A stretch of 22,963 nt of DNA from a virus: IMG/VR virus record IMGVR_UViG_3300017951_000145, positions 1 to 22,963 of that record; one strand, written 5' to 3'. This document shows, piece by piece, positions 37-17,635 of this stretch (position 1 is its first letter; each line of letters begins with the position of its first letter). The translations under genes and the position numbers were made by a program. The notes below the pieces were generated by a model. That model was not told where the DNA came from, made no database searches, and saw nothing but the letters and a program-made list of their open reading frames with translations.

Positions 37-189
37 ATGGCTGCTCAGCCTGAACAGCCTGAACAGAGGGACCCGGCCCCTTCCTTGATCCCCCCACCCC
101 CGATTTACCAGCCGCGCGCGCCAGAGAGACCCCTCAGAAAATCTCACAAAAAATCCCATACCGATTTCGGCACCCTAGTCCAGATTTAG
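37..189 (+). CDS. Small proline-rich protein, 50 aa, unknown
   Basis: An ATG at 37 opens a 50-codon frame ending in TAG at 187-189, immediately followed in frame by TGA, so it has a double stop. The product starts MAAQPEQPEQRDP and is rich in proline, glutamine and basic residues, with a PPPP run near residue 20 and a KSHKKSH basic patch near the C-terminus. It is likely to be largely disordered. It begins three bases after the upstream stop and ends nine bases before the ATG of the next gene. I do not recognise a family. It could be a small head accessory or connector tail, or a non-coding spacer that happens to be open. Confidence 0.4.
   Translation: MAAQPEQPEQRDPAPSLIPPPPIYQPRAPERPLRKSHKKSHTDFGTLVQI
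169..176 (+). promoter_or_regulatory. Late-promoter-like octamer GGCACCCT
   Basis: GGCACCCT fits the recurrent GGNANMCT element and ends 22 nt before the ATG at 198. It lies inside the end of the 50-aa ORF. Its spacing supports ATG 198 rather than the upstream GTG at 189. Confidence 0.45.
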
Positions 190-197
190 TGACGCAG

Positions 198-1100
198 ATG
201 CCGTATTCCCTGGCTCATACGATCTCCTGGGTCGACTCAGGTACCCGTCATGATGCTTTGGTGTATCTGTTTGATACGGCACTGGCGGGCAGAACGGATA
301 CTACAGTAAGTGCTCACCCTGATGCGAGTACAACTAAAAGGAGTGTCAAGAGGACGGTTACCAGTTGGATTACTGGGACAACGCACGACATGTATTACTA
401 TGTGAGTTGGTCAAGTACGACGCCAACTTCATGTTCTATTTACAGTGACTCAACGTATACCACGACACCAGGCGACCTGGGCACTTCTACTACTCTTAGC
501 ATCAATATCGACATAGATGTCAATGGGAGTTTACCGGCAAACGGTGATTTCCAATTCTGGACGTCTGATACCAGTGATGGTGTTTTGATGACACAGAATA
601 GAACGGCCTTGTTCTGGGATCCTGGTGTTGCCGAGGGGATGTTTTATCCAGACGATAGTTGGGATGGCACGGTCAATAATAAAGCGAGCTCGTATTTTCC
701 GTGGACTAACCATGATCCTATGATGATCAACGCTGGAGCTTATCCGATAAACAGCACTCTGAGCAGTACTGACTATAACATGAATATACTGGTGGGCCAT
801 AACGTCTCTAGCGGCAGGCCAGACGGGTATGGTGAGATGATTGCCGCCCCTCCAATTTCCTGGGGAAAGCAGACCACCAACTACTACCCTGGCGTTAGCG
901 ATACCTTTGCGTTCTTCCTGCCTCAGGATAGCATATACTATTACCCCACTTCCTCGAGTGCTACTAATAGGCAATGGGGAACCACCAGTGCTGGGAGTAT
1001 GAATGTTATATTCAACAGCGACAACTCGAAATACTACATGACCACAAGCAGTACTGGTATGGGAGTCGACTGCGGAACAACGGAACCACTTCTTACCTGA
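198..1100 (+). CDS. Putative virion protein, 300 aa, unknown
   Basis: I chose ATG 198 over the in-frame GTG at 189 because the promoter-like octamer sits 22 nt upstream of it. The protein is dominated by Ser, Thr, Tyr, Asn and Gly, has few charged residues, no obvious membrane segment and no coiled coil, a composition typical of beta-rich phage structural proteins. I recognise no catalytic motif or family. Codon use is more A/T-rich (many AGT, TAT, ATA, ACT) than in the tail tube and capsid genes, which could mean recent acquisition. It is followed after 5 nt by a 62-aa gene, probably in the same transcript. A tail or head decoration role is inference from composition and context only. Confidence 0.65.
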   Translation: MPYSLAHTISWVDSGTRHDALVYLFDTALAGRTDTTVSAHPDASTTKRSVKRTVTSWITGTTHDMYYYVSWSSTTPTSCSIYSDSTYTTTPGDLGTSTTLSINIDIDVNGSLPANGDFQFWTSDTSDGVLMTQNRTALFWDPGVAEGMFYPDDSWDGTVNNKASSYFPWTNHDPMMINAGAYPINSTLSSTDYNMNILVGHNVSSGRPDGYGEMIAAPPISWGKQTTNYYPGVSDTFAFFLPQDSIYYYPTSSSATNRQWGTTSAGSMNVIFNSDNSKYYMTTSSTGMGVDCGTTEPLLT

Positions 1101-1105
1101 TCGCT

Positions 1106-1294
1106 ATGGCTGCCGACATTACAATTAACTCCGTTACTGCGGTCACCTCCTCAGCAGATGCCTCTTTTAGTATAGACCTCAGGCGAGTCCTTGTTCGAGA
1201 TTCTGTTGTTGCAGTTATCGAGACATCAGGTGGGGGCTCAGGGCCAGCGCCTCGGCCTTCCAGCGGCTTCCTTTACCCCAGGGGGGACTCCTGA
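1106..1294 (+). CDS. Small unknown protein, 62 aa
   Basis: ATG 1106 lies five bases after the TGA of the preceding gene, suggesting coupled translation, and no promoter-like octamer sits at the usual distance. The product begins MAADITINSVTAVTSSADAS, predicted beta-strands, then has a Gly/Ser/Pro-rich C-terminal tail (GGGSGPAPRPSSG). It ends in TGA at 1292-1294, directly before a convergent minus-strand ORF. Start motifs of the MA-D/N-I type and this size recur in small phage virion proteins, but I recognise no family. The frame is open further upstream, overlapping the previous gene, and I regard that part as non-coding. Confidence 0.55.
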   Translation: MAADITINSVTAVTSSADASFSIDLRRVLVRDSVVAVIETSGGGSGPAPRPSSGFLYPRGDS

Positions 1295-1295
1295 T

Positions 1296-1541
1296 TTACG
1301 CTAAACCCTTCATCCAGTCCCTTTCTGATGGCTCGAGGAGGTAGATCAGGCGATTCATGACTGATTTAGCCTGGTCTTCTTCTATTTTGTGGTAAATTTG
1401 AGCCAACAGCTGGAGGGTTGCCTCTTTCTGGCGGCACCTTACGGCCAGCAGTAGAGCAAGAGAGATCTTTAGCACGGTTTTGGAGTCAACTGGGGGCCTT
1501 ACATTACGCATTATACCAGTCGGAAACCTAGCTTTGACCAC
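1296..1541 (-). CDS. Minus-strand small helical protein, 81 aa, unknown
   Basis: The minus strand is open for 81 codons ending in TAA at 1296-1298, while no plus-strand frame fills the 253-nt gap between neighbours. That argues for a real gene. The sequence looks helical: a hydrophobic stretch (KISLALLLAV) followed by an amphipathic charged segment (QKEATLQLLAQIYHKIEEDQ). An alternative start at ATG 1511 would give 71 aa and avoid overlapping the plus-strand octamer at 1522. The minus strand reads TGGTATAAT around 1519-1511, a good extended -10, but it overlaps the proposed start. The gene is convergent with the 62-aa gene (one base between them). Other minus-strand genes here are homing endonucleases; this one has no HNH motif. 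Confidence 0.45.
   Translation of the reverse strand: MVKARFPTGIMRNVRPPVDSKTVLKISLALLLAVRCRQKEATLQLLAQIYHKIEEDQAKSVMNRLIYLLEPSERDWMKGLA
1522..1529 (+). promoter_or_regulatory. Late-promoter-like octamer GGAAACCT
   Basis: GGAAACCT ends 19 nt before ATG 1548 and 28 nt before the alternative ATG 1557. It matches GGNANMCT exactly. Confidence 0.45.
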
Positions 1542-1547
1542 ATTATT

Positions 1548-1964
1548 ATGCCGATCATGGCTTTAGACACTACAGGCCACTGGGTTGCAGGTGATGATCT
1601 GCGGATTATTGAAGCGCTAAAGCTGCCTTTCGGTGCATATACCCTCGAGTGTACACAGAATTGCGCCAATCAGCTTGAGAACATGAGTTCTGAGGCGGCT
1701 TTACGTGTTCGGGCATTGCTGGACGAGTATGAAGCGGCAAAAACTGCCGAATCCACCCAGAATCTGAGTGACACTGAGGGCAAAACACTGGTTAAGGCCG
1801 ATGTTTTGGAGTGGGAACGCAATGGCGCCGGCTTGCCAAGTGGCGCACAACAGGAAATGAGCCGTGCGCAGCAGGAAATTGCTCAATACTTTGCATTCTG
1901 CAGCTGTATGGGCGGCCTACAGGATGGCAGCATGAACGGAGTCACGTACCTAATACGCTCCTGA
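1548..1964 (+). CDS. Putative neck/connector-region protein, 138 aa
   Basis: Two in-frame starts exist, ATG 1548 (MPIMALD) and ATG 1557 (MALD); the octamer at 1522-1529 lies within the usual range only for 1548. The protein is acidic and mostly helical after residue 35, with TEGKTLVKADVLEWERNG near residue 80 and GAQQEMSRAQQEIAQYF near residue 105. It has four to five cysteines but no paired CxxC motif. Position just before the head-tail joining and tail completion genes suggests a head-tail connector or adaptor, but sequence alone does not prove it. Stop is TGA at 1962-1964. Confidence 0.65.
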   Translation: MPIMALDTTGHWVAGDDLRIIEALKLPFGAYTLECTQNCANQLENMSSEAALRVRALLDEYEAAKTAESTQNLSDTEGKTLVKADVLEWERNGAGLPSGAQQEMSRAQQEIAQYFAFCSCMGGLQDGSMNGVTYLIRS

Positions 1965-1974
1965 GGGTGTTCCT

Positions 1975-1982
1975 GGTAAACT
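1975..1982 (+). promoter_or_regulatory. Late-promoter-like octamer GGTAAACT
   Basis: GGTAAACT ends 24 nt before ATG 2006. A second partial copy, ACCTAG, lies only 6 nt before the ATG. Confidence 0.4.
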
Positions 1983-2005
1983 GTAGCCAGTACAAACCTA
2001 GCCCT

Positions 2006-2179
2006 ATGTCAGGTCATCCCGAAAACAGCCCAGAGGTCAATCAGCTGATGGAAGAAATCGCGAAAGCTGACACCGCTCAGGCTTGGTGTAAAGGCTGTAA
2101 CAACTGGGCGATCGTCAATGCTGCCTACAGTAAGTACATCAAGGGCGAGATTGAGTCTTGCAAGCGCTGCCGAAAGTGA
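2006..2179 (+). CDS. Zinc-ribbon mini-protein, 57 aa
   Basis: The protein (start MSGHPENSPEVNQLMEEI) has an acidic helical N-terminal half and a C-terminal pair of CxxC knuckles, CKGC near residue 32 and CKRC at residues 53-56, ending in a basic CRK tail. This four-cysteine arrangement is a typical single-zinc ribbon. The frame is open upstream to 1811, but that part overlaps the preceding gene and is judged spurious; the octamer at 1975 and the Met at 2006 define a compact product. Such mini-proteins in phages may bind nucleic acid or act as transcription or assembly cofactors, but no specific role can be assigned. A terminator follows about 50 nt after the stop. Confidence 0.6.
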   Translation: MSGHPENSPEVNQLMEEIAKADTAQAWCKGCNNWAIVNAAYSKYIKGEIESCKRCRK

Positions 2180-2226
2180 CGGAAAGCGTAGCGAGCCCGA
2201 TAGGGCGAGGTAAGCTATAAAAAATC

Positions 2227-2248
2227 GCGGGGCGCAAGCCCTGCTTTT
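2227..2248 (+). terminator. Rho-independent terminator
   Basis: GCGGGGC (2227-2233) pairs with GCCCTGC (2238-2244) around a GCAA tetraloop, giving a 7-bp stem with one G-T pair, followed by TTTT. A smaller GCCC-GATA-GGGC hairpin lies just upstream near 2196-2207. The linker TTTTCAATACCTGG leads directly into the next octamer. Confidence 0.75.
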
Positions 2249-2256
2249 CAATACCT

Positions 2257-2264
2257 GGAAGACT
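2257..2264 (+). promoter_or_regulatory. Late-promoter-like octamer GGAAGACT
   Basis: GGAAGACT ends 21 nt before ATG 2285, directly downstream of the terminator. It is the main reason for preferring ATG 2285 over GTG 2267. Confidence 0.5.
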
Positions 2265-2284
2265 AGGTGGATTCGGGTGAAATG

Positions 2285-2800
2285 ATGGCCAGCAATTCTC
2301 CTTTGATGCCTTACAAGAATGCACGGCTACTCGTGCCTGGGCAGAGCGCTGTGACCGTTGTTGATGGCCGTCTGCAGGCTACTCCAAGTGATTCATACCT
2401 TGTGCGTTTGTTTGTCAGTAGGGCCCAGTACAGCGGCGTTTCGTCTGGCTCGAAAAAGCTGCCCCTGGAGTCTCAGCTCGATGGCAGGATGATGCCTGGT
2501 GCTTCTGGTGATCAATTTTTTTATCGCGGCTATGCGTTAGACTTCACTACTGTCCCGGCCGATTACGACCTGGTGGCCGGTGATGAGACCAACCTTGTCT
2601 GGACACAAGTTACAACGCAGTACAGCTGGCTTGCCACAGGGACTGAGTGCCAGTTCAAGTTCGGTCAGGACCCGATCATGCCTGCAGCTAAAATTCAACG
2701 CTCTAGCGGCCAGTATGGTGGGCTAGGCATCGATGAGATCATTTACAAGGAAATTGGTGGGGTCGAACTGCAACTGACGGGTTCGGAACTGCAAAATTAA
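2285..2800 (+). CDS. Putative head-tail joining (stopper) protein, 171 aa
   Basis: ATG 2285 (MASNSPLMPYKNARLLVPGQ) is favoured by octamer spacing; ATG 2282 and GTG 2267 are in-frame alternatives. The product is beta-rich, with VTVVDGRLQATPSDSYLV near residue 25 and LVWTQVTTQYSWLATGTECQF near residues 105-125. The C-terminal segment IIYKEIGGVELQLTGSELQN is predicted strand and helix. Length and position, between connector-like genes and the tail completion protein, fit a head-closure or stopper protein. The family assignment is inferred from position, since I see no diagnostic motif. It ends in TAA at 2798-2800 and is followed by an inserted minus-strand HNH gene. Confidence 0.7.
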   Translation: MASNSPLMPYKNARLLVPGQSAVTVVDGRLQATPSDSYLVRLFVSRAQYSGVSSGSKKLPLESQLDGRMMPGASGDQFFYRGYALDFTTVPADYDLVAGDETNLVWTQVTTQYSWLATGTECQFKFGQDPIMPAAKIQRSSGQYGGLGIDEIIYKEIGGVELQLTGSELQN

Positions 2801-2801
2801 C

Positions 2802-3335
2802 CTAAACAGGCGCTCCTAGCTCTCTTCGGAGAGTGACGGAAGCCTTGTGAGCCGCCTTGGGGCAGTCGAAATACCCAGCAGAATACATCTTGGCGCGATA
2901 AGAAAAGCAGGCATGCCAGCCGCTCTTATTCCAGCAGACCCATCTGTAGCCAGATTTATTCGGCTTCTTCCTGCTCTGTATCACATCCTTTCTATTCAGT
3001 CTTTGCTCGCTGTCTGAGGCGGCCCTGAGGTTCTCTGGAGCGCTGTTCAAGGGGTTGCGGTCGATGTGGTCCACGGTAAGTGGGTATGGATCATAACCAT
3101 TGGCGATGATGAAGACAGCACGATGCGATTGGCAGTACCTGCCGCCCAGCTTAACCTGCCCGTACCCTGTGCCATTGACTCGACCAGCCATCTCGCCGAT
3201 TTTGGCCCGCGAATAAGGAGAAAACCGCTCCTTCCATCTCAGACCCGTCGGCAGCTCTGGGGCGACCTCAAGACAGCGCTTGATGGACTGGATCTCTTCT
3301 GCGGAATACTGTCTGTAGAAGAGATGCATTGGCAT
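2802..3335 (-). CDS. HNH homing endonuclease with AP2-like domain, 177 aa
   Basis: I take Met at 3335 (MPMHLFYRQYSAEEIQ) as the start; Met at 3329 is also possible, and an open TTG extends to 3374. Residues about 20-75 match the N-terminal part of the endonuclease at 20686. The HNH core is TVDHIDRNPLNSAPENLR near residues 85-102, with the DH-I-D and N...N...NL signature. The C-terminal part (SGYRWVCWNKSGWHACFSYR, then AAHKASVTLRREL) looks like an AP2-type DNA-binding domain. Free-standing homing endonucleases of this type cleave phage DNA and promote their own spread. It lies antisense between two neck genes and has no promoter-like octamer at the usual spacing. Confidence 0.85.
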   Translation of the reverse strand: MPMHLFYRQYSAEEIQSIKRCLEVAPELPTGLRWKERFSPYSRAKIGEMAGRVNGTGYGQVKLGGRYCQSHRAVFIIANGYDPYPLTVDHIDRNPLNSAPENLRAASDSEQRLNRKDVIQSRKKPNKSGYRWVCWNKSGWHACFSYRAKMYSAGYFDCPKAAHKASVTLRRELGAPV

Positions 3336-3365
3336 GCTTGTGCATACCGTTAATTCACCAGGCGC
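2807..3365 (+). repeat. Short direct repeats flanking the HNH gene
   Basis: CAGGCGC occurs at 2807-2813 and at 3359-3365, each preceded by a related TTAA-containing stretch. The pair brackets the minus-strand HNH gene. It may mark the insertion boundaries, but a 7-bp match can be chance. Confidence 0.25.
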
Positions 3366-3379
3366 CGCAAGCAAAACTA

Positions 3380-3943
3380 ATGAAGCTACCTCCTAATGTT
3401 AAACTTGACGATAACGCCAAGCAGCTTCTAGGGCTGAAGCCTTTTGATGACCTGGAAGAAGGCGGATTCGACGTGGATATTCCTGTTCAACTGCTTCCGA
3501 TGGGAATTGTTAACGGGTGGTCAGTTAGCGTCGAAGGAATAGAGGACTTCGCAAATTCGATTAACCAGGAAGCCGAAGATATAAAGTTGGCCGTCAAGAA
3601 GGCCTTAAAAGGCGTTGCTGTCGACCTTAAAAGGGCTCTGGACGCAGCTCTAAAGTCTTCGGCCTGGAGGTGGCCCACAGGAGGCTCTAGGGACATCTAC
3701 GACACGGGTGCGCTGCTCAGCTCTGGCTCGGTAACTGTCAATGGTTACAGTCTTGCCGTGAAATACGGAGCTTCGTATGCCAGTATTGTACACAATGGCG
3801 GCTACATATTCCCTTATGGCAACAAGAATTTGAGACCTATTTACCTACCAGGCCGCCCCTGGATTACCTCTACGCTGTACGGTGGCGGCCCTGTCCCCCA
3901 GTTTGACTTCAATGCCTCCCTAAAAAGGTACTTGAGGGGCTGA
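3380..3943 (+). CDS. Tail completion / HK97 gp10-like protein, 187 aa
   Basis: ATG 3380 is used because the open frame upstream (to 3329) overlaps the HNH gene. After a helical region with alternating K and A (residues 65-100) the protein shows the HK97-gp10-like order: RDIYDTGALLSSGSV (about 118), YASIVHNGGYI (about 141) and LPGRPWITSTLYGG (about 161). The D-TGAL-S, Y--IV--GG and GRPW elements are typical of this neck and tail-completion family, whose members sit at the head-proximal end of the tail. Position before the tail chaperones and tail terminator agrees. No promoter-like octamer lies at the usual distance, perhaps because the HNH insertion displaced the original junction. Stop is TGA. 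Confidence 0.8.
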   Translation: MKLPPNVKLDDNAKQLLGLKPFDDLEEGGFDVDIPVQLLPMGIVNGWSVSVEGIEDFANSINQEAEDIKLAVKKALKGVAVDLKRALDAALKSSAWRWPTGGSRDIYDTGALLSSGSVTVNGYSLAVKYGASYASIVHNGGYIFPYGNKNLRPIYLPGRPWITSTLYGGGPVPQFDFNASLKRYLRG

Positions 3944-3946
3944 TTA

Positions 3947-3954
3947 GGTATACT
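3947..3954 (+). promoter_or_regulatory. Late-promoter-like octamer GGTATACT
   Basis: GGTATACT ends 22 nt before ATG 3976. Of the thirteen well-spaced copies it is one of the closest to a consensus -10 (TATACT). Confidence 0.5.
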
Positions 3955-3975
3955 ACGTGCGCTTGATGACACGTT

Positions 3976-4536
3976 ATGACTAAGCTCCCTTTCGTAGTAT
4001 CTCCAAGGCTTAAACCCATCAAAGAGCTTGTTGGCTCTGACGATTCCGGCATAATCGAGATCGAACGCTATGGCTACTTGACCGCAGGCGAGCGTTCCTT
4101 TATGCAGTCTAACAGCACTGAAGAAAAGACGCTTAGCGAAGTTCTGTCTCTTACCCGCAAGGTTGGCAAAGCTTACTCGCTGGACATGAAGCAGTCCTAC
4201 GAGCTGGTTATGACTGCGATGACTGACCAGTCAGATCAAGAGGCCAGCAAGGTCTGGGACGACTTTAACGTTGAATTGGGTGATCTGACGGGCCAGCTGA
4301 TGCGCCAAGAGGAAACCAAAAAGATCCTCAAGGCGTTGTGTCTTTGCGTGTACCGTATTGACGCTGAGATCACGGTTGACGACATCATCAAACTTCATGA
4401 TGATATTGTCGACGGCCTAGTTCGACTGTTTAACGACGAAGAGGCCAAGAGTACCGAACGCCTTCTGGACGTTCTGGGTGTCGAGGAAGACGAGGACATC
4501 GTTGCCGACGGCATTGATGAGGTAGAAAAAAAGTAG
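3976..4536 (+). CDS. Tail assembly chaperone (gpG-like), 186 aa
   Basis: The start ATG has an octamer 22 nt upstream. The protein is helical and strongly acidic at the C-terminus (VEEDEDIVADGIDEVEKK). It ends with codons GAA AAA AAG TAG, which form an in-phase A-AAA-AAG slippery heptamer at 4527-4533. A -1 slip leads without a stop into the frame of the following gene at 4563. This is the classic lambda G/G-T arrangement, in which both the short protein and a small share of fusion product are needed to assemble the tail around the tape measure. The assignment rests mainly on the frameshift and the tail-module context. Unusually, the pair lies before the tail tube gene rather than between tube and tape measure. 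Confidence 0.7.
   Translation: MTKLPFVVSPRLKPIKELVGSDDSGIIEIERYGYLTAGERSFMQSNSTEEKTLSEVLSLTRKVGKAYSLDMKQSYELVMTAMTDQSDQEASKVWDDFNVELGDLTGQLMRQEETKKILKALCLCVYRIDAEITVDDIIKLHDDIVDGLVRLFNDEEAKSTERLLDVLGVEEDEDIVADGIDEVEKK
4527..4533 (+). other. Programmed -1 ribosomal frameshift site A-AAA-AAG
   Basis: The heptamer is in the correct phase (GAA AAA AAG) right before the TAG. After slippage the reading continues GTA GCG GCC GGC AAG... and reaches the ATG at 4563 in the same frame with no stop. A GAGG at 4519-4522 could act as an upstream Shine-Dalgarno stimulator, and a weak GGCC...GGCC pairing (4538-4554) lies downstream. Confidence 0.75.
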
Positions 4537-4562
4537 CGGCCGGCAAGCAAGGCCTTTCTTAC

Positions 4563-5150
4563 ATGGATGATATATTCTGGGACCTCAAGGCGTTCTTTCC
4601 TGGGGACTCAGAGTTTCATCTAGAGAACTTTTACCGGCTGCCGTGCGAGTACGTTACCCTCGCACATCATAGGGCTATAAAGTTAAGGAAAAGGCAGCTC
4701 CACGAGGCAGAGCGTCCATCGGCTCTACTTGCTTGCCTTTATGCTAACTCGAAGAGGGACTCAAAAAAGAAGGCTGTCAACATGGACGAGTTTTATCTGT
4801 ATCCCGAAGAATCGGCAAACAGTGGTCCATCAAGCAGATTCGGTTCAGCTTATCTGTACCTCGCCAAGTCAGGCAAGCTGCCTTCATGGGCGCTGTTCTG
4901 CTACAAGGACGTTGCAAAGTCCGCCGATGGGCCTGTTCCAACCATCCCGGCTCTATTCTCCGAGTATGCGATCCTTCTGGCTCCTAGGAAGGGACTAGAA
5001 GGCTACTCTGGCCTTCTTATCGCTCTTGAGGCAGCAGAGGGCCCTCAGCGGTTTACGAGCCCTTGCGGGATCAGCGAGACGTTAGTTGTTCCTAGTATCC
5101 ACACTAAGGCTATCGCCGAAGAGAATATCACTCTTCGACGTTTTCAGTAA
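4563..5150 (+). CDS. Tail chaperone T part, made as -1 fusion with 3976 gene
   Basis: This frame is entered from the previous gene by the -1 slip at 4533, predicting a 391-aa fusion (186 + 205 residues). Its own ATG at 4563 could also give a 195-aa protein, but it lacks a promoter-like octamer and a good Shine-Dalgarno. The segment starts MDDIFWDLKAFFPGDSEFH and contains YRLPCEYVTLAHHRAIKLRK near residues 23-43, a basic helical block. The C-terminal half has a more globular beta-rich composition (YAILLAPRKGLEGYSGLLIAL). By analogy with lambda gpGT the T domain contacts the tape measure or tube subunits. The last 23 nt overlap the 3' end of a convergent HNH gene. Confidence 0.65.
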   Translation: MDDIFWDLKAFFPGDSEFHLENFYRLPCEYVTLAHHRAIKLRKRQLHEAERPSALLACLYANSKRDSKKKAVNMDEFYLYPEESANSGPSSRFGSAYLYLAKSGKLPSWALFCYKDVAKSADGPVPTIPALFSEYAILLAPRKGLEGYSGLLIALEAAEGPQRFTSPCGISETLVVPSIHTKAIAEENITLRRFQ

Positions 5151-5556
5151 GTAGCCGATCAAGCCAACAAATATCATCTTCCGAAGCGGTTAGGTCTATG
5201 ACCTGGCCGCTTTTTAGCCATTCGCGGATACGGAGCTCAGCCGACAGCGAGTAGAAGGGTTGCATACCGTACCATGCCAGCCACTCTTCGCTCCCCTTGG
5301 CTTGGTTGCAGCGCCTGCAAGCTGGAATTGCGTTTGAAGTGCGGTCTTCGCCTCCTTTGGCTCTTGGTTTTACGTGGTCAATAGTCAGTGACTTGTCGTC
5401 AATTGGGGGTTTATTGCAGTAGGCACAGCGATTTCCCCATACCTCCTTGATGCCGGCTCTCCAGAGCCGCTTTGCTTCAGCCGATGATAATGCTGTCATG
5501 GTGTAAACGTAGTCTTGTGGGCGCTCGTAGAGCGGTTGGCGACTAGCGTCTGTCAT
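5128..5556 (-). CDS. HNH endonuclease (CxxC zinc type), 142 aa
   Basis: The HNH core begins NRCAYCNKPP near residue 42, continues LTIDHVKPRAKGGEDRTSNA and ends IPACRRCNQAKGS. This is the classic CxxC...DH...N...CxxC layout with two zinc-binding cysteine pairs, the general-base His in DH and the metal-site Asn. Met 5556 is the longest start; Met 5499 (MTALSSAEAKRLW) is an alternative close to the domain. It is a different subfamily from the two AP2-linked HNH genes in this window. It is antisense to the tail genes, overlaps the chaperone gene's 3' end by 23 nt, and lacks the promoter-like octamer. It is probably a free-standing homing endonuclease. Confidence 0.88.
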   Translation of the reverse strand: MTDASRQPLYERPQDYVYTMTALSSAEAKRLWRAGIKEVWGNRCAYCNKPPIDDKSLTIDHVKPRAKGGEDRTSNAIPACRRCNQAKGSEEWLAWYGMQPFYSLSAELRIREWLKSGQVIDLTASEDDICWLDRLLTENVEE

Positions 5557-5641
5557 CGAATTACGATAACAACGCCAGAAGAAATGCTGGTTGAAGCGAT
5601 TAGCATAAGCTTTTCTGCGTTGTTAGACTAGTATACCCGCT

Positions 5642-5649
5642 GGAACCCT
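5642..5649 (+). promoter_or_regulatory. Late-promoter-like octamer GGAACCCT
   Basis: GGAACCCT ends 22 nt before ATG 5671. GTATAC (5631-5636) lies just upstream. Confidence 0.5.
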
Positions 5650-5670
5650 ACGATCGTACGGTTTTCGGCC

Positions 5671-6102: not shown

Positions 6103-6107
6103 GACGG

Positions 6108-6157
6108 CCTATTGGAAGAATAGGTATAACGGGCCGTAGAAGGTCCGAAGTACCTTC
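6108..6157 (+). promoter_or_regulatory. Tail tube leader: GGTATAAC and two stem-loops
   Basis: CCTATT (6108-6113) pairs with AATAGG (6119-6124) around GGAAG. GGTATAAC (6123-6130) is a near-match to the late octamer with a -10-like TATAAC. GAAGGT (6139-6144) pairs with ACCTTC (6152-6157) around a 7-nt loop, at the expected 5' end of a transcript from that octamer. The leader before ATG 6184 would be about 45 nt, longer than for most genes here. Confidence 0.45.
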
Positions 6158-6183
6158 ATGCGGATCCAGGTCCGTTCTTCTAT

Positions 6184-7044: not shown

Positions 7045-7080
7045 AGTCCGTAACCGCGATGCTTACGGCAAAACACCCAG

Positions 7081-7102: not shown

Positions 7103-7105
7103 CAT

Positions 7106-7113
7106 GGAAACCT
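7106..7113 (+). promoter_or_regulatory. Late-promoter-like octamer GGAAACCT
   Basis: GGAAACCT ends 22 nt before ATG 7135, only four bases after the terminator T tract. It would restart transcription for the tape measure gene. Confidence 0.5.
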
Positions 7114-7134
7114 ATACCAGCTTATTAGGAAATC

Positions 7135-10391: not shown

Positions 10392-10399
10392 GGCATACT
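10392..10399 (+). promoter_or_regulatory. Late-promoter-like octamer GGCATACT
   Basis: GGCATACT ends 21 nt before ATG 10420. It starts three bases after the tape measure stop. Confidence 0.5.
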
Positions 10400-10419: not shown

Positions 10420-10758
10420 ATGTTTCTCTTCGGTACTCCAAAAGACATGGCAAGGCTGTACGTGGAGCAGGCCGTTTCGTCGGGTGGCGGAGGTCTCGAG
10501 GACCTGCACTACGAAGACATGGAGCTGCAGGAGCTACAGGATCTGTTGGTCTACCTCCGCATTGCCTACTACAGGGCCTCCAGAGACACCGAAGACGAGG
10601 CGGTGGTGTCAGTCATCACAGAATGGCACGACGAGATCTTCCTGTACCTCCTGGAGGTTGTGGAGGACTTCAGGACGCTTGTCTGCAGCCGCATTCACAA
10701 GCCGATCGGTGACTGGAACAAATATCATAAGCTCGCAGGCTGCACTTCGGCAAACTAG
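10420..10758 (+). CDS. Small acidic tail-module protein, 112 aa, unknown
   Basis: The protein starts MFLFGTPKDMARLYVEQAVS and is mostly helical and acidic (LEDLHYEDMELQELQDLLVY near residue 27, EVVEDFRTLV near 85). It has no membrane segment and no recognised motif. It follows the tape measure by 30 nt and precedes the distal tail genes. A tape-measure-associated or distal tail assembly role is possible from position only. Its stop TAG (10756-10758) lies partly inside the octamer of the next gene. Two other frames are open across this stretch; octamer spacing and protein character support this one. Confidence 0.7.
   Translation: MFLFGTPKDMARLYVEQAVSSGGGGLEDLHYEDMELQELQDLLVYLRIAYYRASRDTEDEAVVSVITEWHDEIFLYLLEVVEDFRTLVCSRIHKPIGDWNKYHKLAGCTSAN
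10749..10756 (+). promoter_or_regulatory. Late-promoter-like octamer GGCAAACT
   Basis: GGCAAACT ends 23 nt before ATG 10779 and overlaps the last codons and stop of the 112-aa gene. Confidence 0.45.
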
Positions 10759-10778
10759 CTGCAGTTAGGTGACCCGAA

Positions 10779-11180
10779 ATGGCCAGCATAGGAGTGTCTT
10801 TTACGCCCCAGGCAGGGTCTCCAGTTTACAGTTTTGTGTTCAGGAACTTCGGTGACAACAACATGCCGAGGACCTATTCTGACGTAGCTACTTTTAATCA
10901 GTCAGCCAACGGTACCACGATCCTCGGCGGCCCTGCATTTACGCAGAAGCGGGTATGGGCTATTAACTCGATGATTTTGACAGCTGAGGCAGAGAACTTT
11001 GACGCCATGTACCAGGCATGGGACGCTGACCGCGCCTCTGGCTATCCAGTTGCTTGTGGTGTCGTGGATGACACCTTTGGCCCGACCGTCAACGCTAGCG
11101 CAGTGTTTTCTACGGCTCCAACATACATGCGAGCAGGTCCGCAGTACACCGTGGTCGCTTTTGGCTTGACGGAGGTTTGA
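10779..11180 (+). CDS. Putative distal tail protein, 133 aa
   Basis: The protein starts MASIGVSFTPQAGSPVYSFV and is beta-rich with a central FTQKRVWAINSMILTAEAENF (about 52) and YQAWDADRASGYPVACGVVDD (about 77). The short length, lack of charge clusters and position between the tape measure and the hub fit a distal tail or tail-tip ring protein, but this is positional inference. The stop TGA (11178-11180) lies 3 nt before the ATG of the hub gene, whose GGAGGT ribosome site is inside the end of this gene, so the two are coupled. Confidence 0.7.
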   Translation: MASIGVSFTPQAGSPVYSFVFRNFGDNNMPRTYSDVATFNQSANGTTILGGPAFTQKRVWAINSMILTAEAENFDAMYQAWDADRASGYPVACGVVDDTFGPTVNASAVFSTAPTYMRAGPQYTVVAFGLTEV

Positions 11181-11183
11181 TTA

Positions 11184-13463
11184 ATGTCTTATATCGTAAA
11201 CCAGGCTCGCGTCCATTCCCTCACCGTTGGCGGAGTTGACTATACCAGCGCCTTGGTCAGTTGGAATGCCTCCGATTCTTCTGCCAACAAGAATGGCTTC
11301 ATCACCACGTCTGGGACACTGGTCCTCGGCTCCTATCCTGGTGGGCCCGACGTAGAGGACTACGACCGCAACGATTTTAAGCGCGGTGTTCCTGTCATCT
11401 TGACAATGCAGACACCAGCTGCTGTAACTTATCGCCACCCTCGTGGACTGCTGTATGTTATCTCGACGTCCTACAACGTTGAAGCAGAAGAGTTAAACGT
11501 TGAGATCGGCTGCCGCCTGGCAATGGCCGCAATCATGGATGATCCGAGTACGACGCTTAACCTGTCTCCTATCCACCTTGACCCAGCGCGACAGCAGCTT
11601 AGCAACATTAGCGCGGCTTTCGCTACGACCGGGCAATACCTGTATCAGGATAATAACGGCAACTTTGTTTCTGGCAAGTTTTTCAACGGAGATTCCGAGG
11701 CTGGTACCGCAACTGGGCAGTGGACTTCAGTCCTTGGCGTAACTGCCCTTTCTGCTGCACCACTGGCAGGAGCTGGTGCCATTCCTGACTCAATTAAACT
11801 GACATACTCCGTACCCGAGGGGTCGATTGCCGATGACCAAAAGGGGCGGATCGATACTGAAGAGACCTTTTCCTATTACTGGGTTGATTACCCTGCCTCT
11901 TTGAGCGTTCGGACTGGCGATGGCGATCTTAACAATGCTGGCGGCCTAAACCCTGGAGAAAAACCAGATGGAACCAAGAAGGATCCATGTGGCAACAAGG
12001 AGCCAACGCCAGAGGACAACGGCCAGGGGTCTTGTCAGGAGGGGTACAGCGTCGAATCTCGTCCTTATATCCTGCCCGCTAATCGGCACGAGCTGAGTAA
12101 AACTTACTACAGAGGACCAGCTGGTCAGCAAGACTTCACCGAATCGTGGACTTGGGGCCCTATCGTAGAAGCTAATAGCCAGTATTTTGCTGATGACTAC
12201 GCATACTGTGTCGGACAATGGGCAACCGACTGTCAGCCAGGCGGTGGATGCAGTACGCCTGGGATGCTTGAGAGGCTGCTGGGAAAAACGACGACTAGGA
12301 ACCACTTCGGATCCGCCAATGAGATTGTAAAACAGGTTCAAACGTCTTGGGTTAACATGCTGTCGATGGCCAAGCCTCAAGACTGGAGGTCTGGTCTTAG
12401 CCCTCAGGGTGTTCCAGAAGGCTTCAGGCGCCCAAGTCAGTACACCATGATTCGGTCTCAGGTAAAGATTACGAAGTATTATAGGGAGGGCAATGCTAAT
12501 GTGCAGTACACAAAAACTTACACCAGTGTCGGCAATAACGGATCTGGTATCTCTGTCGGTGAGACTGCGCTTGACGCTTACAACGGTGTTGTAACATCGG
12601 AACTAAGGCGCTCAACCTCGACCGCTACCCTTGACGTCGCTCCAGATATCGTGAACTCGGCTACGACGAGCACTGTAGAGCAGACCACCGAGCTGCCTCT
12701 GTTTACTGGCCGCTACACCTTGCCACCAGCTGAGGCTGGTCCTTATATCATGGAGGAGTCAGTCCCAATGCCTCTTCTGTTTGACACAGAGCAGGAGATC
12801 CAGGCCGCGATTGATGACTACTCGAACTACCTGATCCGCTTTACCAAGGGCGACGCTTTTGGCCTCCAGATTGGCGAGGGGCTCCGTGAGGACGTGGCTC
12901 AGAATTGGTTCCCTGGAATGCCGTTCCGCTACTACGATCCCAAGAAGGGTAAAGTGCTTGCGTTGCGCATGGACGCCACCTCCTGGGGTGTCACGAAGGA
13001 CGAAAGCGCATTTGTTACCAATGGTATCTGGTGCGGCGTGTCAAACGGTACCGTAACGCTCCCTCAGAACGTTGTAGGAGCCTCTACGGTGACCGATGGG
13101 GGCAGTACTGACCCGCTGACCACTGCGCCCAACGGACCTACCGCTTCAGCCCCTCCTGTGGTCGTTCCTCCTGTTGTTGACAACGAGACAAATGTTGACA
13201 ATGGAACCTTCGCTTGGGTCATCAAGGTCGACATGATACTCAAGGCCACCGTGGAGGCGCGTAACGACATCGGCGTTCAGCCGCCACCAATGGATCCTGA
13301 GGTCGTGGAGCACTTTCAAGCTATGGTCGCCTACTGTCAGGGCATGGTCGTACAAGCTGGTGGCCTGCTTTCTGCAGACGGTACTGGCGGAGTTCCGATC
13401 GAAAACGGAAATACGCTTATTACAACTGGGGCAACTGTAGTGACGGCAGATCTCTTCGTGTAG
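11184..13463 (+). CDS. Putative tail hub / baseplate protein, 759 aa
   Basis: ATG 11184 has GGAGGT 8-9 nt upstream. The first about 115 residues look like the hub domain found at siphophage and myophage tail tips: SLTVGGVDYTSALVSWNASD (about 12), then a strand with NDFKRGVPVILTM (about 62) and the following segment GLLYVISTSYNVEAEEL (about 87). A low-complexity Gly/Pro/Asp loop with cysteines lies near residues 250-285 (GGLNPGEKPDGTKKDP). The C-terminal third has a Pro/Thr/Val-rich linker (VVVPPVVDNETNVDN, about 660). The protein would form the tip that the fibres attach to. I see no peptidase or lysozyme motif. Stop is TAG. Confidence 0.75.
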   Translation: MSYIVNQARVHSLTVGGVDYTSALVSWNASDSSANKNGFITTSGTLVLGSYPGGPDVEDYDRNDFKRGVPVILTMQTPAAVTYRHPRGLLYVISTSYNVEAEELNVEIGCRLAMAAIMDDPSTTLNLSPIHLDPARQQLSNISAAFATTGQYLYQDNNGNFVSGKFFNGDSEAGTATGQWTSVLGVTALSAAPLAGAGAIPDSIKLTYSVPEGSIADDQKGRIDTEETFSYYWVDYPASLSVRTGDGDLNNAGGLNPGEKPDGTKKDPCGNKEPTPEDNGQGSCQEGYSVESRPYILPANRHELSKTYYRGPAGQQDFTESWTWGPIVEANSQYFADDYAYCVGQWATDCQPGGGCSTPGMLERLLGKTTTRNHFGSANEIVKQVQTSWVNMLSMAKPQDWRSGLSPQGVPEGFRRPSQYTMIRSQVKITKYYREGNANVQYTKTYTSVGNNGSGISVGETALDAYNGVVTSELRRSTSTATLDVAPDIVNSATTSTVEQTTELPLFTGRYTLPPAEAGPYIMEESVPMPLLFDTEQEIQAAIDDYSNYLIRFTKGDAFGLQIGEGLREDVAQNWFPGMPFRYYDPKKGKVLALRMDATSWGVTKDESAFVTNGIWCGVSNGTVTLPQNVVGASTVTDGGSTDPLTTAPNGPTASAPPVVVPPVVDNETNVDNGTFAWVIKVDMILKATVEARNDIGVQPPPMDPEVVEHFQAMVAYCQGMVVQAGGLLSADGTGGVPIENGNTLITTGATVVTADLFV

Positions 13464-13470
13464 GTATCCT
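13463..13470 (+). promoter_or_regulatory. Late-promoter-like octamer GGTATCCT
   Basis: GGTATCCT ends 24 nt before ATG 13494 and starts on the last base of the hub stop codon. TAGGTATCCTA (13461-13471) is a near-palindrome, TAGG-N3-CCTA. Confidence 0.5.
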
Positions 13471-13493
13471 ACACCGAATGAGATGTCCTTCAG

Positions 13494-14477
13494 ATGACAA
13501 TTGCCGCTAAGATCTCGTCTACCGAATTGACGGCACAGGTAACTGCTCGCTTTTCGGGTAAGTACCTGGAAGGGCGGCTGATCAACGCTGCTGGCACTTC
13601 CTACATTCCTGGAACAACCGACGACACTACGTTCCTTAGCTTTGAGCCAGCGCTTGGAACTGGTGGATATCAGCGGCAAATCATCAAGTACGAGCCAGCA
13701 GACATCTTGGCTTATAGTGACGACGGCGTGCCCCTCAATAGGAAGGCGACTATTTTCGCTCATGACGGAGGCGGTACGAGTATCGACTTCAGTCATGTCG
13801 CGCTGGTTTGGAGCACTGGAAATGCTCTGACTCTTGGTGCAGTAACAACCGCTCCAAGTGCTGGCGTAGACGGAACCTACACAAACATTCCCGTCACCAC
13901 GCTTGGCGGAGAAGTCAGAGAAGTGGGGTCGTTTAGCACTACAACGCCATTCACCGCTTCCCAGGCAGCTGCGGCGGTTACGATTAGCGGCGGGTCTGGA
14001 ACGGGGGCTACTGCCACTGTCGACACAGACTCCTCTGGCAATGTTGTTGCCGCCAATATCACTGGAGGTGGCTCCAACTATGTTGCTGGTGACAGTATTA
14101 CTATTACCGAGAGTGGTGGTACCCCTGGCGTTGCCACGGCAACTGTGGTCTTAGTTGACGGCGCTAATCTTCTTGTAGACCTGACAATTTCCAACAGTGG
14201 GGCAGCTACTACTGACTACGCTCTGACAATCGCGACACCTGGCTTTGGGTTTGAGGACGGAGACTCCGTGACTATTCTAGACGGAACACTCGCTGGGTTG
14301 GGCGCAATTACTGGCGGTGCTGGAAACTTAGTCTTCACTGTTGGTACTACCACCACAAGTACTGACGCTGGCGACATTCTGTCTGTAGCAGAGACCGCTA
14401 GCGCTGTTGTCCTCGATGGAGGGAACGAAGCAGTCTTCTACTGGGACCTCAAGCAGTTTGGATTCTACTCAGTCTGA
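13494..14477 (+). CDS. Tail protein with Gly/Thr-rich beta repeats, 327 aa
   Basis: Residues about 1-105 form a globular beta-rich head (MTIAAKISSTELTAQVTARF; FLSFEPALGTGGYQRQIIKY near 43). From about residue 160 there are repeat-type domains: ATATVDTDSSGNVVAANITG (about 173) with NYVAGDSITITESG, and a more diverged unit with TPGFGFEDGDSVTILDG (about 246). The first repeat is clearly similar to the readthrough extension of the tail tube gene at 6799-7044 (ATADTDSSGNLTAINITSAG). Such domains are common surface modules in cyanophage structural proteins and may bind host glycans, which I infer. Its stop overlaps the next start (TGATG at 14475-14479), showing coupling. Confidence 0.75.
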   Translation: MTIAAKISSTELTAQVTARFSGKYLEGRLINAAGTSYIPGTTDDTTFLSFEPALGTGGYQRQIIKYEPADILAYSDDGVPLNRKATIFAHDGGGTSIDFSHVALVWSTGNALTLGAVTTAPSAGVDGTYTNIPVTTLGGEVREVGSFSTTTPFTASQAAAAVTISGGSGTGATATVDTDSSGNVVAANITGGGSNYVAGDSITITESGGTPGVATATVVLVDGANLLVDLTISNSGAATTDYALTIATPGFGFEDGDSVTILDGTLAGLGAITGGAGNLVFTVGTTTTSTDAGDILSVAETASAVVLDGGNEAVFYWDLKQFGFYSV

Positions 14478-14740
14478 TGGCACTTATCGATGAACTGAAA
14501 GAGATCAGCTTTGCCGAGCGAATCGCTGACGTCGAGCGGCGTGACAAGGGCTATCTTGTTCAAGGCGACTTTGAGGGCAGCGTCACGGGCTACTGGGTCA
14601 AGCTTGATGAATCTGGTGCTGGAATCGTCACCTTCAATAATAAGGAGTACGTCACAGAAACGATCGGCTTTGTGTCTTTGCCAAAAGGTACAGCAGTAGA
14701 ACTTAGCTTCGCCGACGGCACTTATTTTAGCAAGTATTGA
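14477..14740 (+). CDS. Small tail-module protein, 87 aa, unknown
   Basis: ATG 14477 overlaps the previous stop by one base. The product (start MALIDELKEISFAERIADVE) has a helical acidic N-terminus, then a compact beta part (GSVTGYWVKLDESGAGIVTF near 37). It has no cysteines and no membrane segment. It forms part of a tightly packed run of small genes (14477-15259), presumably read from the transcript of the repeat-protein gene. No family is recognised; a tail-tip accessory or fibre-chaperone role is possible. Confidence 0.68.
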   Translation: MALIDELKEISFAERIADVERRDKGYLVQGDFEGSVTGYWVKLDESGAGIVTFNNKEYVTETIGFVSLPKGTAVELSFADGTYFSKY

Positions 14741-14741
14741 C

Positions 14742-14954
14742 ATGGCTATCAATCCCTCCCAACTTGGCGCACAACCGATTACGTCTAACTACGACGTGAC
14801 GATCGAACTGCTTGTAACCAGGCCAAGTCCTGGGGCTTACAACGCTACCGCTGATACGCCGAACAAGCTGGTGGGGTATTACGACGCAATCATGGATCAT
14901 GTAGAACTCTACATTGTCGACAATACTGGTTACAGGTATCTGAGGATAGCTTAA
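14742..14954 (+). CDS. Small virion-type protein, 70 aa, unknown
   Basis: One base separates the previous TGA and this ATG. The protein starts MAINPSQLGAQPITSNYDVT and is a short beta-rich protein (YDVTIELLVTRPS; DHVELYIVDNTGYRYLRIA at the C-terminus). The stop overlaps the next start as TAATG. The first four residues, MAIN, are shared with the next gene, so a short duplication is possible. The central YNATADTPNKLVGYYDAIMD is plausible for a small fold that interacts with a larger tail protein. Function unknown. Confidence 0.65.
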   Translation: MAINPSQLGAQPITSNYDVTIELLVTRPSPGAYNATADTPNKLVGYYDAIMDHVELYIVDNTGYRYLRIA

Positions 14955-15259
14955 TGGCAATCAATAGCGGACGAATTGCAGCTGGCCCGACAAAGACGAG
15001 AGTGGCAGCCAAGACAAATTGCGTCAGCATAACAAATACTACTCCACCGAACTCTTACCCGAGAGTCTCTCCAGAGACGGGCTCGCTCGAGACTATCGAT
15101 CAAAGCCCGCAAAGGGAAGGCCAGGTGCTGTGCTACAACGCGCAGAACGACACGGCGTTATATGTTGTAGTAGACATTGGTGGCACACTTACCTGGAAGC
15201 GTTGCGCGGCCATTACTGGCTACATCGATTCGACAACTGGAAAACCATTTGGCCTTTGA
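14954..15259 (+). CDS. Small virion-type protein, 101 aa, unknown
   Basis: The gene overlaps the previous stop by one base. It starts MAINSGRIAAGPTKTRVAAK and has a middle rich in Ser/Pro/Thr, then EGQVLCYNAQNDTALYVVVD near residue 56 and a C-terminal ITGYIDSTTGKPFGL. The EGQVLCYNAQ...ALYVVVD segment resembles phrases in phage fibre and head-decoration proteins where a domain reports a state as a string of beta-strands. It contains three cysteines. Function unknown; it is probably a virion accessory next to the Cys-rich protein. Confidence 0.65.
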   Translation: MAINSGRIAAGPTKTRVAAKTNCVSITNTTPPNSYPRVSPETGSLETIDQSPQREGQVLCYNAQNDTALYVVVDIGGTLTWKRCAAITGYIDSTTGKPFGL

Positions 15260-15260
15260 C

Positions 15261-15268
15261 GGTATCCT
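15261..15268 (+). promoter_or_regulatory. Late-promoter-like octamer GGTATCCT
   Basis: GGTATCCT ends 21 nt before GTG 15289 and 12 nt before TTG 15280, so the spacing rule favours GTG 15289. Confidence 0.5.
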
Positions 15269-15288
15269 AATCCAGTCGCTTGTGGCTG

Positions 15289-16482
15289 GTGAGCTGGAAC
15301 TTTTGGCGAAAGGTTGACGAGTTAGACAGAAGGACTAGCGACCCCAATCGGATTGCTGAAGATGCGCGTTCTGGCTTTTCTTTCACGAACGAAAGCTTTC
15401 TTGACAACGAGCTCTTCAGAAAAACCAGTAACTCTGAATGTAACGGAAGCCGCGACTGCGGATCTGGATTCGCCTGCATTGATGGTAAGTGTACCAAAAT
15501 CCACACCAGGGGCGGTGGCAACTGGACGCCGAACAGCTGTGGCGACGATAGCGTAACCCGGGCTTGCACCAAGGGCGACAAGTCTGGGAGTAACGATAAA
15601 TGTACACAGCCGACGCCAGGGAACTGCGACAAAGATCCTATCTGCCCTGGAGAGCGCTGTTGCAGGCAACAGGAAGATGGGTCGATTCGCTGTGTCTGCG
15701 GATCATGCGATCAAATCGATGCCTCTAGGTGTAACGTGTACTGCGACCAGTATTACAAAACTTGGGGGGATGTTTTGGCTGGTTGCTACAAGAGGGACGT
15801 GGAAGGTTTTGGCGAGTGCGGTGGCAATATCTGCGATGAATGCAAGTTCTGCGAAAGCGACTTTGTCGGCTCAAATTTTGGCACATGCGAGCTAGGCAAC
15901 CAGGGCGATCCGTTCAACCCTCTGCCGTGCCATTGCTTTCCAAGGTGCAGCGAAGAGTGCCACGTCTGCAACAAAGACGTAAACAGTTCAAGGTTTGGAG
16001 ATTGTCAGTACTCTGCGCAGAATTGCAGCGAGTGCTGTGCTATATCTAACTACGACTGTCCTCAGTGCGCTAGGTTCTTCCCAGGCTTTAGTTACCACTG
16101 CGAGCCAGTGACCAGCGCGAAGAATTGCATCAGTGCGCTACAGGAAAAGCTTTATAATCAATGCGCGGAAGATTGTGCTACCAAGCCAGACCCCTGCGCC
16201 TCTACGGGCGCCACCAGCCGCTGCATTGACGGCAGCGCACCTGTGGATCCCGATACTAACCCAGAGGGGCCAGCGGGTATCAGCTGCCCACAAGGGAAGA
16301 CGTGTCAGTACGCTGGCTACGTGGAGATCGGTGGCAAGACTTGTTATCTCTACAACACCTGGGTCACTGCTGACATTCCAGCAGAATGCAAGGAGGTCGA
16401 CTGCAACTGCCACATCGACTGTCCTGATTGTCAGCTGTGCGGAGCTGACGGTAAGTGCTATCCCGATCCAGTCTGTAGCTAG
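15289..16482 (+). CDS. Cysteine-rich virion-type protein, 397 aa
   Basis: GTG 15289 (MSWNFWRKVDELDRRTSDPN) is preferred from octamer spacing; TTG 15280 adds three residues. The first 50 residues have no cysteine and are charged. The remainder carries about 50 cysteines (about 12.6% of the protein), in CxxC, CC and Cx(4-8)C patterns: CNGSRDCGSGFACIDGKC (about 51), ICDECKFC (about 182), PCHCFPRCSEECHVC (about 212) and VDCNCHIDCPDCQLC near the end. The patterns look like metal-binding knuckles or disulphide-stabilised EGF-like modules. No signal peptide is apparent. In a virion the cysteines could be oxidised after lysis, or bind zinc or iron-sulphur. It probably belongs to the tail tip or fibres. 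I do not recognise a named family. Confidence 0.8.
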   Translation: MSWNFWRKVDELDRRTSDPNRIAEDARSGFSFTNESFLDNELFRKTSNSECNGSRDCGSGFACIDGKCTKIHTRGGGNWTPNSCGDDSVTRACTKGDKSGSNDKCTQPTPGNCDKDPICPGERCCRQQEDGSIRCVCGSCDQIDASRCNVYCDQYYKTWGDVLAGCYKRDVEGFGECGGNICDECKFCESDFVGSNFGTCELGNQGDPFNPLPCHCFPRCSEECHVCNKDVNSSRFGDCQYSAQNCSECCAISNYDCPQCARFFPGFSYHCEPVTSAKNCISALQEKLYNQCAEDCATKPDPCASTGATSRCIDGSAPVDPDTNPEGPAGISCPQGKTCQYAGYVEIGGKTCYLYNTWVTADIPAECKEVDCNCHIDCPDCQLCGADGKCYPDPVCS

Positions 16483-16489
16483 GAACCCT
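16482..16489 (+). promoter_or_regulatory. Late-promoter-like octamer GGAACCCT
   Basis: GGAACCCT ends 21 nt before GTG 16510 and begins on the last base of the Cys-rich gene's TAG. TAGGAACCCTA (16480-16490) again has the TAGG-N3-CCTA form. Confidence 0.5.
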
Positions 16490-16509
16490 AGCCTAGCTTC
16501 TATTGGTCC

Positions 16510-17625
16510 GTGGCAGTTTTTCCTGATCGCATTGTTCTGAAGAACTCCACGGACAGCCAGGCAGCCATTGAGGCAGCTATTGGCAACGGTGGATCCGATC
16601 AAATCACCCAGGGTGAGATCGTTGTTGGGCTAGAAGCTAACGCCGTTGCCCTCTATGCGATAGACGGCACTGGCAACGTCGTGAGAATCAGTAGCACTGG
16701 GGCTATCGCCAACCTTGGAGATTTGATCGATGTAGACCTCACTACACCCGCAACAGACGGGCAGGTCATTGCATATAACTCAACAAGCGGCAACTGGGAA
16801 CCCGTTGATCCTGGAACTGTTACTAGCGTAGACATCATTGGGGGTACGGGGCTGACGTCCAGTGGCGGGCCTGTAACTACTGCTGGCACAATTACTATAG
16901 ACCTGGATAATACCGCTGTCACCCCTGGCAGCTACACGAATGCAGATATTACGGTCGATGCCCAAGGTCGAATTACGGCGGCCGCTAATGGCGCGGCCCC
17001 CAGCACTTCTATTGACGACCTGACCGATGTAGACACGTCAACAACTCCACCTACCAATGACCAGGTGCTGATTTGGAACGAGACTAATTGGGTTCCTGGT
17101 GACGCTGCCGCAGGTGGTGGTGGGTCTACTGGTACCCGTCTCACAGAAAGCCAGACGGCCGCCAGCGGTGCTGCCACTTTTGTTGGCATAGGACATTCAG
17201 GCACTTTAGTAGAGGTAACCTCATCACTTGATGCCTGGATCGTTATCTACGGATCAGCTGCTGATAGGACCAGCGACTCGGGGAGAGCCTATAACACCGA
17301 TCCATCTCCAGGGTCTGGCGTTCTTGCTGAGTTCTATGTTACAGCTGGTAGCACCATTCTCGCCACCCCTGGTACGACATACTTCAACAATGACACCACC
17401 ATGACCGAGGCCATCTACGCCGCAGTCAGGGATCAGGCTGGAGCGAATGTCAACTCCCAGGTAACTATTACGGCTTACGGTCACCAGGCTCTTCAGGGTG
17501 CTTCCGTTCGCACTGCCCTCGGGATTGGTGAATACGCAGACGACGCAGCTGCCGGCACTGGCGGAGTAGCTTCTGGAGCCATGTATTACAACACAACTTC
17601 TAGCGACTACCGACTCAAGACCTGA
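16510..17625 (+). CDS. Tail fibre-type protein, 371 aa
   Basis: GTG 16510 fits the octamer spacing (21 nt). The start MAVFPDRIVLKNSTDSQAAI is followed by fibre-like text: IANLGDLIDVDLTTPATDGQ (about 68), GNWEPVDPGTVTSVDIIGGT (about 94) and YTNADITVDAQGRITAAANG (about 142). A second LTDVDTSTTPPTNDQVLIWN unit (about 172) shows that residues about 68-100 and 170-200 are internal repeats. A Gly-rich hinge (AAAGGGGSTG, about 201) separates a C-terminal globular beta domain. The protein ends GAMYYNTTSSDYRLKT. Such proteins form trimeric, host-contacting fibres; no chaperone or hydrolase motif is visible. Confidence 0.82.
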   Translation: MAVFPDRIVLKNSTDSQAAIEAAIGNGGSDQITQGEIVVGLEANAVALYAIDGTGNVVRISSTGAIANLGDLIDVDLTTPATDGQVIAYNSTSGNWEPVDPGTVTSVDIIGGTGLTSSGGPVTTAGTITIDLDNTAVTPGSYTNADITVDAQGRITAAANGAAPSTSIDDLTDVDTSTTPPTNDQVLIWNETNWVPGDAAAGGGGSTGTRLTESQTAASGAATFVGIGHSGTLVEVTSSLDAWIVIYGSAADRTSDSGRAYNTDPSPGSGVLAEFYVTAGSTILATPGTTYFNNDTTMTEAIYAAVRDQAGANVNSQVTITAYGHQALQGASVRTALGIGEYADDAAAGTGGVASGAMYYNTTSSDYRLKT

Positions 17626-17627
17626 TC

Positions 17628-17635
17628 GGTACCCT
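17628..17635 (+). promoter_or_regulatory. Late-promoter-like octamer GGTACCCT
   Basis: GGTACCCT ends 21 nt before ATG 17656. The downstream bases AGCCCAGCTT resemble those after the octamers at 7106 and 16482. Confidence 0.5.

Follow-up and report, generated by a model that had tools for sequence, protein, structure and literature searches.

In phage phiEco32, promoters read by the phage sigma factor gp36 consist of a single element, tAATGTAtA, with no −35 and a start 6–8 bp downstream; gp36 lacks region-4 homology, and its promoters are dispersed before middle and late genes (PMC8948821). The late promoters of T4, which involve gp55, gp33, and the gp45 clamp, are also −10-only and stand before many genes (PMC2988020, PMC7892883), and gp55 combines a divergent linker with a conserved clamp-binding end (PMC2988020). 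Among cyanobacteria, the Synechocystis SigF promoters of pilA1 and sigF carry GGTAA in the −12 region and TAGGC at −32, and sigF is autoregulated (PMC2758279). Prochlorococcus phage P-SS2 was noted in 2009 to encode both a group-2 and a group-3 sigma factor, the latter likely to read specific sequences; as described in the sigma and promoter passages of that paper, the promoter search covered sigma-70-type promoters only, and those passages do not mention the octamer reported here (PMC2784084). Its two sigmas are thus already known, and the literature that we found names no target for the group-3 factor.

The stretch analyzed here (the window) is a 22,963-base virus record comprising a virion-gene part of an S-CBS2-like cyanosiphovirus genome. 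Its capsid protein is 82–87% identical to those of the Synechococcus siphoviruses S-CBS2 and S-CRES1-3, and 52% identical to the P-SS2 counterpart. Tape measure, scaffold, major head, neck, and tail genes were recognized, and a search for tRNA genes found none. Three HNH endonuclease genes lie amid the virion genes (2802–3374, minus strand; 5128–5556, minus strand; 20644–21414, plus strand), as does a gene (15289–16482) for a very cysteine-rich 400-aa protein without a Pfam match.

The first-pass annotation had listed 13 octamers of the form GGNANMCT ahead of start codons. All 13 were recovered as exact matches with the same ends, 19–24 nt 5′ of the same starts. The list was correct but incomplete, leaving out the octamers ending at 18660, 21483, and 21864 on the plus strand and at 5630 on the minus strand. 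The sites, each with the base that follows it, are:

169..176, plus strand: octamer GGCACCCT, then A; 22 nt before the start at 198
1522..1529, plus strand: octamer GGAAACCT, then A; 19 nt before 1548; octamer in 2/2 orthologues
1975..1982, plus strand: octamer GGTAAACT, then G; 24 nt before 2006
2257..2264, plus strand: octamer GGAAGACT, then A; 21 nt before 2285; terminator-like hairpin at 2227–2244 just upstream
3947..3954, plus strand: octamer GGTATACT, then A; 22 nt before 3976
5642..5649, plus strand: octamer GGAACCCT, then A; 22 nt before 5671
5630..5637, minus strand: octamer GGTATACT, then A; serves the divergently oriented HNH gene, whose 17-codon leader ORF (5606–5553, minus strand) has its ATG 24 nt further on
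7106..7113, plus strand: octamer GGAAACCT, then A; 22 nt before 7135 (tape measure)
10392..10399, plus strand: octamer GGCATACT, then G; 21 nt before 10420
10749..10756, plus strand: octamer GGCAAACT, then A; 23 nt before 10779; octamer in 8/8 orthologues
13463..13470, plus strand: octamer GGTATCCT, then A; 24 nt before 13494; octamer in 19/20 orthologues
15261..15268, plus strand: octamer GGTATCCT, then A; 21 nt before 15289
16482..16489, plus strand: octamer GGAACCCT, then A; 21 nt before 16510; octamer in 22/23 orthologues
17628..17635, plus strand: octamer GGTACCCT, then A; 21 nt before 17656; octamer in 31/33 orthologues
18653..18660, plus strand: octamer GGCATACT, then A; the scaffold gene starts 43 nt on, at 18703, which gives a longer leader
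21476..21483, plus strand: octamer GGCATCCT, then A; 6 nt before the ATG at 21489, a start call that is uncertain
21857..21864, plus strand: octamer GGTAGCCT, then A; 15 nt before the called ATG at 21879

For the last of these, an in-frame ATG further on, at 21900, has a Shine-Dalgarno-like GGAGG. In the logo of the 13 originally listed sites, position 9 is A in 11, T or C precedes the octamer, and no upstream block is visible. The extended pattern GGNANMCTA occurs 15 times on the two strands of the window against 4.9 expected from shuffles (0/100 reach 15), and these 15 sites are either intergenic or confined to the 3′-terminal few bases of the preceding gene.

The first-pass annotation had proposed a full-genome scan with a distance control, and this bore it out in four complete relatives. 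Taking gene starts as annotated by others, octamers end 20–26 nt before 20/89 plus-strand genes in S-CBS2, 19/105 in S-CRES2, 19/107 in S-CRES3, and 9/120 in P-SS2, far above the 0.4–0.75 expected per genome (maximum 4) when gene positions were shifted 2000 times. When 300 upstream regions were searched without bias for gapped five-base patterns of any kind, GG.A..CT came first, with 84/300 upstream regions against 41/1196 controls (log10 p −49.6), and the same search in two more distant phages (contigs of 99 and 106 kb) returned CGGAAnCCT-like patterns. Because independent genomes show the enrichment, the worry that the pattern was hand-picked is removed. Sites from unannotated contigs were chosen by start-codon distance, and their distance histograms are not independent evidence.

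Across distinct upstream regions, the octamer is kept in 94–100% of the well-sampled orthologues (genes at 10779, 13494, 16510, and 17656), whose median protein identity is 53–65%; few orthologues were sampled for the remaining octamer genes. The tape measure genes of S-CBS2, S-CRES2, and S-CRES3 carry it too, and beyond virion genes it precedes terS, the sigma gene, and rnr. Genes that abut their upstream neighbor had been said to lack the octamer, and it is found in 0 of the 1–17 orthologues of each. The major capsid gene (19692) counts against the promoter reading: no octamer lies 18–32 nt upstream in 59 orthologues, and CACCCAA, TTCATC, and similar sequence is conserved ahead of its start.

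The octamer is almost certainly a promoter, and we consider it very probable that it forms the core of a single-element, −10-type late promoter, most likely read by the phage group-3 sigma. Logos of 67, 18, and 353 sites contain no −35 element, and in those of 67 and 353 sites the only conserved upstream base is a T at −2 of the octamer. Purines occupy positions 13 and 14 of the octamer register in 72% and 75% of sites, compared with 56% and 47% for octamers elsewhere, and the positions ahead of this pair lean toward pyrimidines. Position 14 is a purine in 77–85% of sites across start distances of 21–24 nt, and thus keeps its register with the octamer rather than with the start codon. If the octamer ends at −7, the expected +1 coincides with the purine pair. 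The register therefore fits the earlier reading of the octamer's last six bases as a −10 hexamer with fixed A2 and T6 and leaders of about 14 nt. Ordinary sigma-70 promoters were considered as a separate cause and rejected, as they number 17 in 20 kb versus 13.5 in shuffled sequence and leave the octamer genes unexplained.

We propose that the promoter core would be (T)nGGNANMCTA at about −14 to −6, with transcription beginning at the purine pair 6–7 nt past the octamer T, which would leave a leader of ∼14 nt. A copy of its own stands before most virion and packaging transcription units, giving a candidate regulon of about 20–28 sites per genome, and abutting genes without an octamer are presumably read from the preceding promoter. 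Judging from gene content, these units would be expressed late. The most likely reader is the group-3 (SigF-like) sigma of the phage, working with the core RNA polymerase of the host.

This is a known kind of promoter, because phiEco32 already combines one-element promoters with a sigma lacking region 4. The octamer phages share with phiEco32 a single conserved −10-like element without a −35 (67- and 353-site logos), dispersed ahead of presumably late genes. The purine pair 6–7 nt past the octamer T would correspond to the start 6–8 bp downstream in phiEco32, and the sigma, with a Pfam region-4 match in 1/45 (E 0.15), may resemble gp36 in lacking region 4, although a degenerate domain 4 may remain. 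They differ in the box (GGNANMCTA, not tAATGTAtA), in the SigF-like group-3 sigma, in their cyanobacterial hosts, and in the usual placement of the octamer ∼21 nt from the start codon. Cyanobacterial SigF promoters resemble it in having GG and then A in the −12 region, an autoregulated sigma gene, and a related sigma family, but their TAGGC at −32 is not conserved in the phages, whose box continues with MCTA and has no conserved −35. Our search of open-licence papers returned no mention of the octamer, and within that literature the box, the host group, and the SigF-type sigma are new.

The window, a 23-kb fragment, contains no sigma gene, and the link to a sigma is drawn from relatives, which encode two each: one of group 3, adjoining terL, and one that is group-2-like. 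The earlier suggestion of either an altered polymerase or a phage sigma factor is best supported in its second part, and nothing was found for the first. For all four terL-side sigmas, the best model is NF005644 (SigF; E 7e-20 to 2e-23), although none reaches its curated cut-off; SigBFG models match the sigma as well. The octamer is present in 8/8 genomes examined that encode a group-3 sigma (S-CBS2, S-CRES2, S-CRES3, P-SS2, G001, G003, G016, and G017), and no group-3 match was found in S-CBS3, S-CBS4, or KBS-S-2A, cyanosiphoviruses without the octamer signal. GGNANMCTA counts are 0 in S-CBS3, 0 in S-CBS4 (first 50 kb scanned), and 1 in KBS-S-2A, versus 18, 16, 16, and 5 in octamer phages. Matches to the shorter pattern in S-CBS3 (2) and KBS-S-2A (3) were set aside as weak, since requiring the A at position 9 leaves 0 and 1, respectively.

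Region 2 is recognized in 45/45 group-3 sigma homologues. Good region 2 without a recognizable −35-reading region 4 fits the missing −35 element. The C-terminal segment searched alone gave no Pfam match. An AlphaFold model from 5 sequences was poor (pLDDT 60); with 45 sequences pLDDT rose to 77.5, with the tail and domain arrangement weak. Domain 2 of the model aligns well (Z 11.7, 77 residues, 1.8 Å), and the Foldseek whole-chain TM of about 0.3 is low because the domains are placed freely. Residues 164–213 are helical in the model, and some sigma-chain alignments reach that far, so that a degenerate domain 4 may remain there.

Upstream of the group-3 sigma gene itself, the octamer occurs in 23/47 distinct regions and the extended −10 TGGTAnnnT in 34/47 (shuffled rate 0.8%), from which it follows that the two interchange in one register. 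Preceded by an octamer or by an extended −10 merging with it, the sigma gene would probably be activated first by an earlier sigma and would then sustain its own expression.

The main alternative keeps the octamer as a promoter box but assigns it to the phage group-2 (RpoD/RpoS-like) sigma, or to a host sigma with a phage co-activator. The group-2-like sigma is present in all relatives and also lacks Pfam region 4, and could therefore be the reader; the hexamer retains the A2 and T6 of a sigma-70 −10, and the extended −10 ahead of the group-3 gene points the same way. However, S-CBS3 and KBS-S-2A have RpoD-like sigma genes with neither a group-3 sigma nor an octamer signal, the GG before the hexamer resembles group-3 (SigF) −10 regions, and the S-CRES2 group-2 sigma gene itself has a TTGACA/CATAAT-type promoter. 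We regard this assignment as unlikely. At S-CRES2 4757, S-CBS2 47804, and S-CRES3 5004, sigma-70-type boxes (TTGACA or TTGACG with CATAAT, TATACT, or CATACT) stand ahead of the group-2-like gene, which suggests that the host enzyme expresses it early.

Far less probable is a translation signal, an RNA element recruiting ribosomes at a fixed distance in place of a Shine-Dalgarno sequence, which the first-pass annotation had named as its alternative. The narrow start distance (20–26 nt) would suit it, as would the scarcity of Shine-Dalgarno-like motifs, which had been noticed in the window and holds more widely (16% of octamer genes versus 40% of other genes), although this depletion is equally in keeping with a promoter. 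Against it, the distance drifts at the scaffold gene, where the octamer lies 38–43 nt upstream in most of 42 orthologues, and the purine signal follows the octamer, not the start. Terminator hairpins also stand between octamer and start at S-CBS2 32949 (where the octamer, GGAAAGCT, is a looser match), S-CBS2 34679, and S-CRES3 60682; an mRNA coming from upstream would be terminated at the hairpin, which a transcript begun inside the 5′ arm would not form. The octamer is moreover never found before orthologues of abutting genes, and is absent from cyanosiphoviruses of related Synechococcus hosts, with which the ribosome is shared. A regulator-binding or recombination site, which would also be a short conserved sequence ahead of many transcription units, is scarcely credible given the fixed orientation toward the gene, the −10-like register with a purine start, and the interchange with extended −10 boxes before the sigma gene.

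With the group-3 sigma as the favored reader, its C-terminus permits a comparison with T4. The tail is variable (linker entropy 1.69 bits per column versus 0.51) and usually ends in QxxLF, with Q in 37/37, L in 36/37, and F in 37/37 complete tails. The bacterial beta-clamp-binding consensus is QL(S/D)LF, with more variability accepted (PMC9690074); the sigma end is usually QGSLF, in which Q, S, L, and F fit and position 2 is G, P, or A, not L. In S-CRES2 and S-CRES3, the group-3 sigma is the only protein with such a C-terminal motif. Beyond the −10-only promoters before many genes, the resemblance to gp55 lies in domain 2 and in a variable linker ending in a conserved motif. The octamer box is not TATAAATA-like, however, the QxxLF end is of bacterial beta-clamp style where T4 has a hydrophobic-acidic gp45 motif, and neither a clamp nor a DNA polymerase is annotated in the octamer phages, which would have to rely on the host clamp.

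We tentatively suggest, as a hypothesis that falls somewhat short of an even chance, that a SigF-type sigma, its −35-reading domain lost, recognizes the −10-only octamer ahead of most late genes while tethered through QxxLF to the host beta clamp. If so, late transcription would be replication-coupled as in T4, but the sigma would be of another type and the clamp would be that of the host. QxxLF is absent from the sigmas of P-SS2 and several divergent members, and one contig (that of L010/L149) encodes a sigma without it yet carries many octamers; the motif is thus not essential for octamer use.

The octamer makes the group-3 sigma a testable late switch and suggests how these viruses turn on late genes. 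It predicts start sites within a base or two, and in a virus group that is common in metagenomes it helps to delimit operons and to check start codons. The sigma C-terminal motif makes replication-coupled late transcription directly testable outside the T4 group.

Group-3 sigma genes whose products end in QxxLF, resembling a beta-clamp-binding peptide, include L159:10001-10726, L092, and L095. In the S-CBS2 record (NC_015463, 56832–57564), a frame break near codon 206 truncates the annotated 206-aa group-3 sigma. Two pieces joined by tblastn restore the 244 aa seen in its relatives, and another frame runs on to QGSLF.

The minus-strand HNH gene has an octamer 74–80 nt upstream in the window, S-CBS2, S-CRES2, and S-CRES3 (4/4). 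In the same four phages, a leader ORF of 16–17 codons begins 24–25 nt past the octamer and ends at or just before the HNH start, and inverted repeats (ACAACG...CGTTGT) flank it in some phages. Translational control of the homing endonuclease by this leader is possible.
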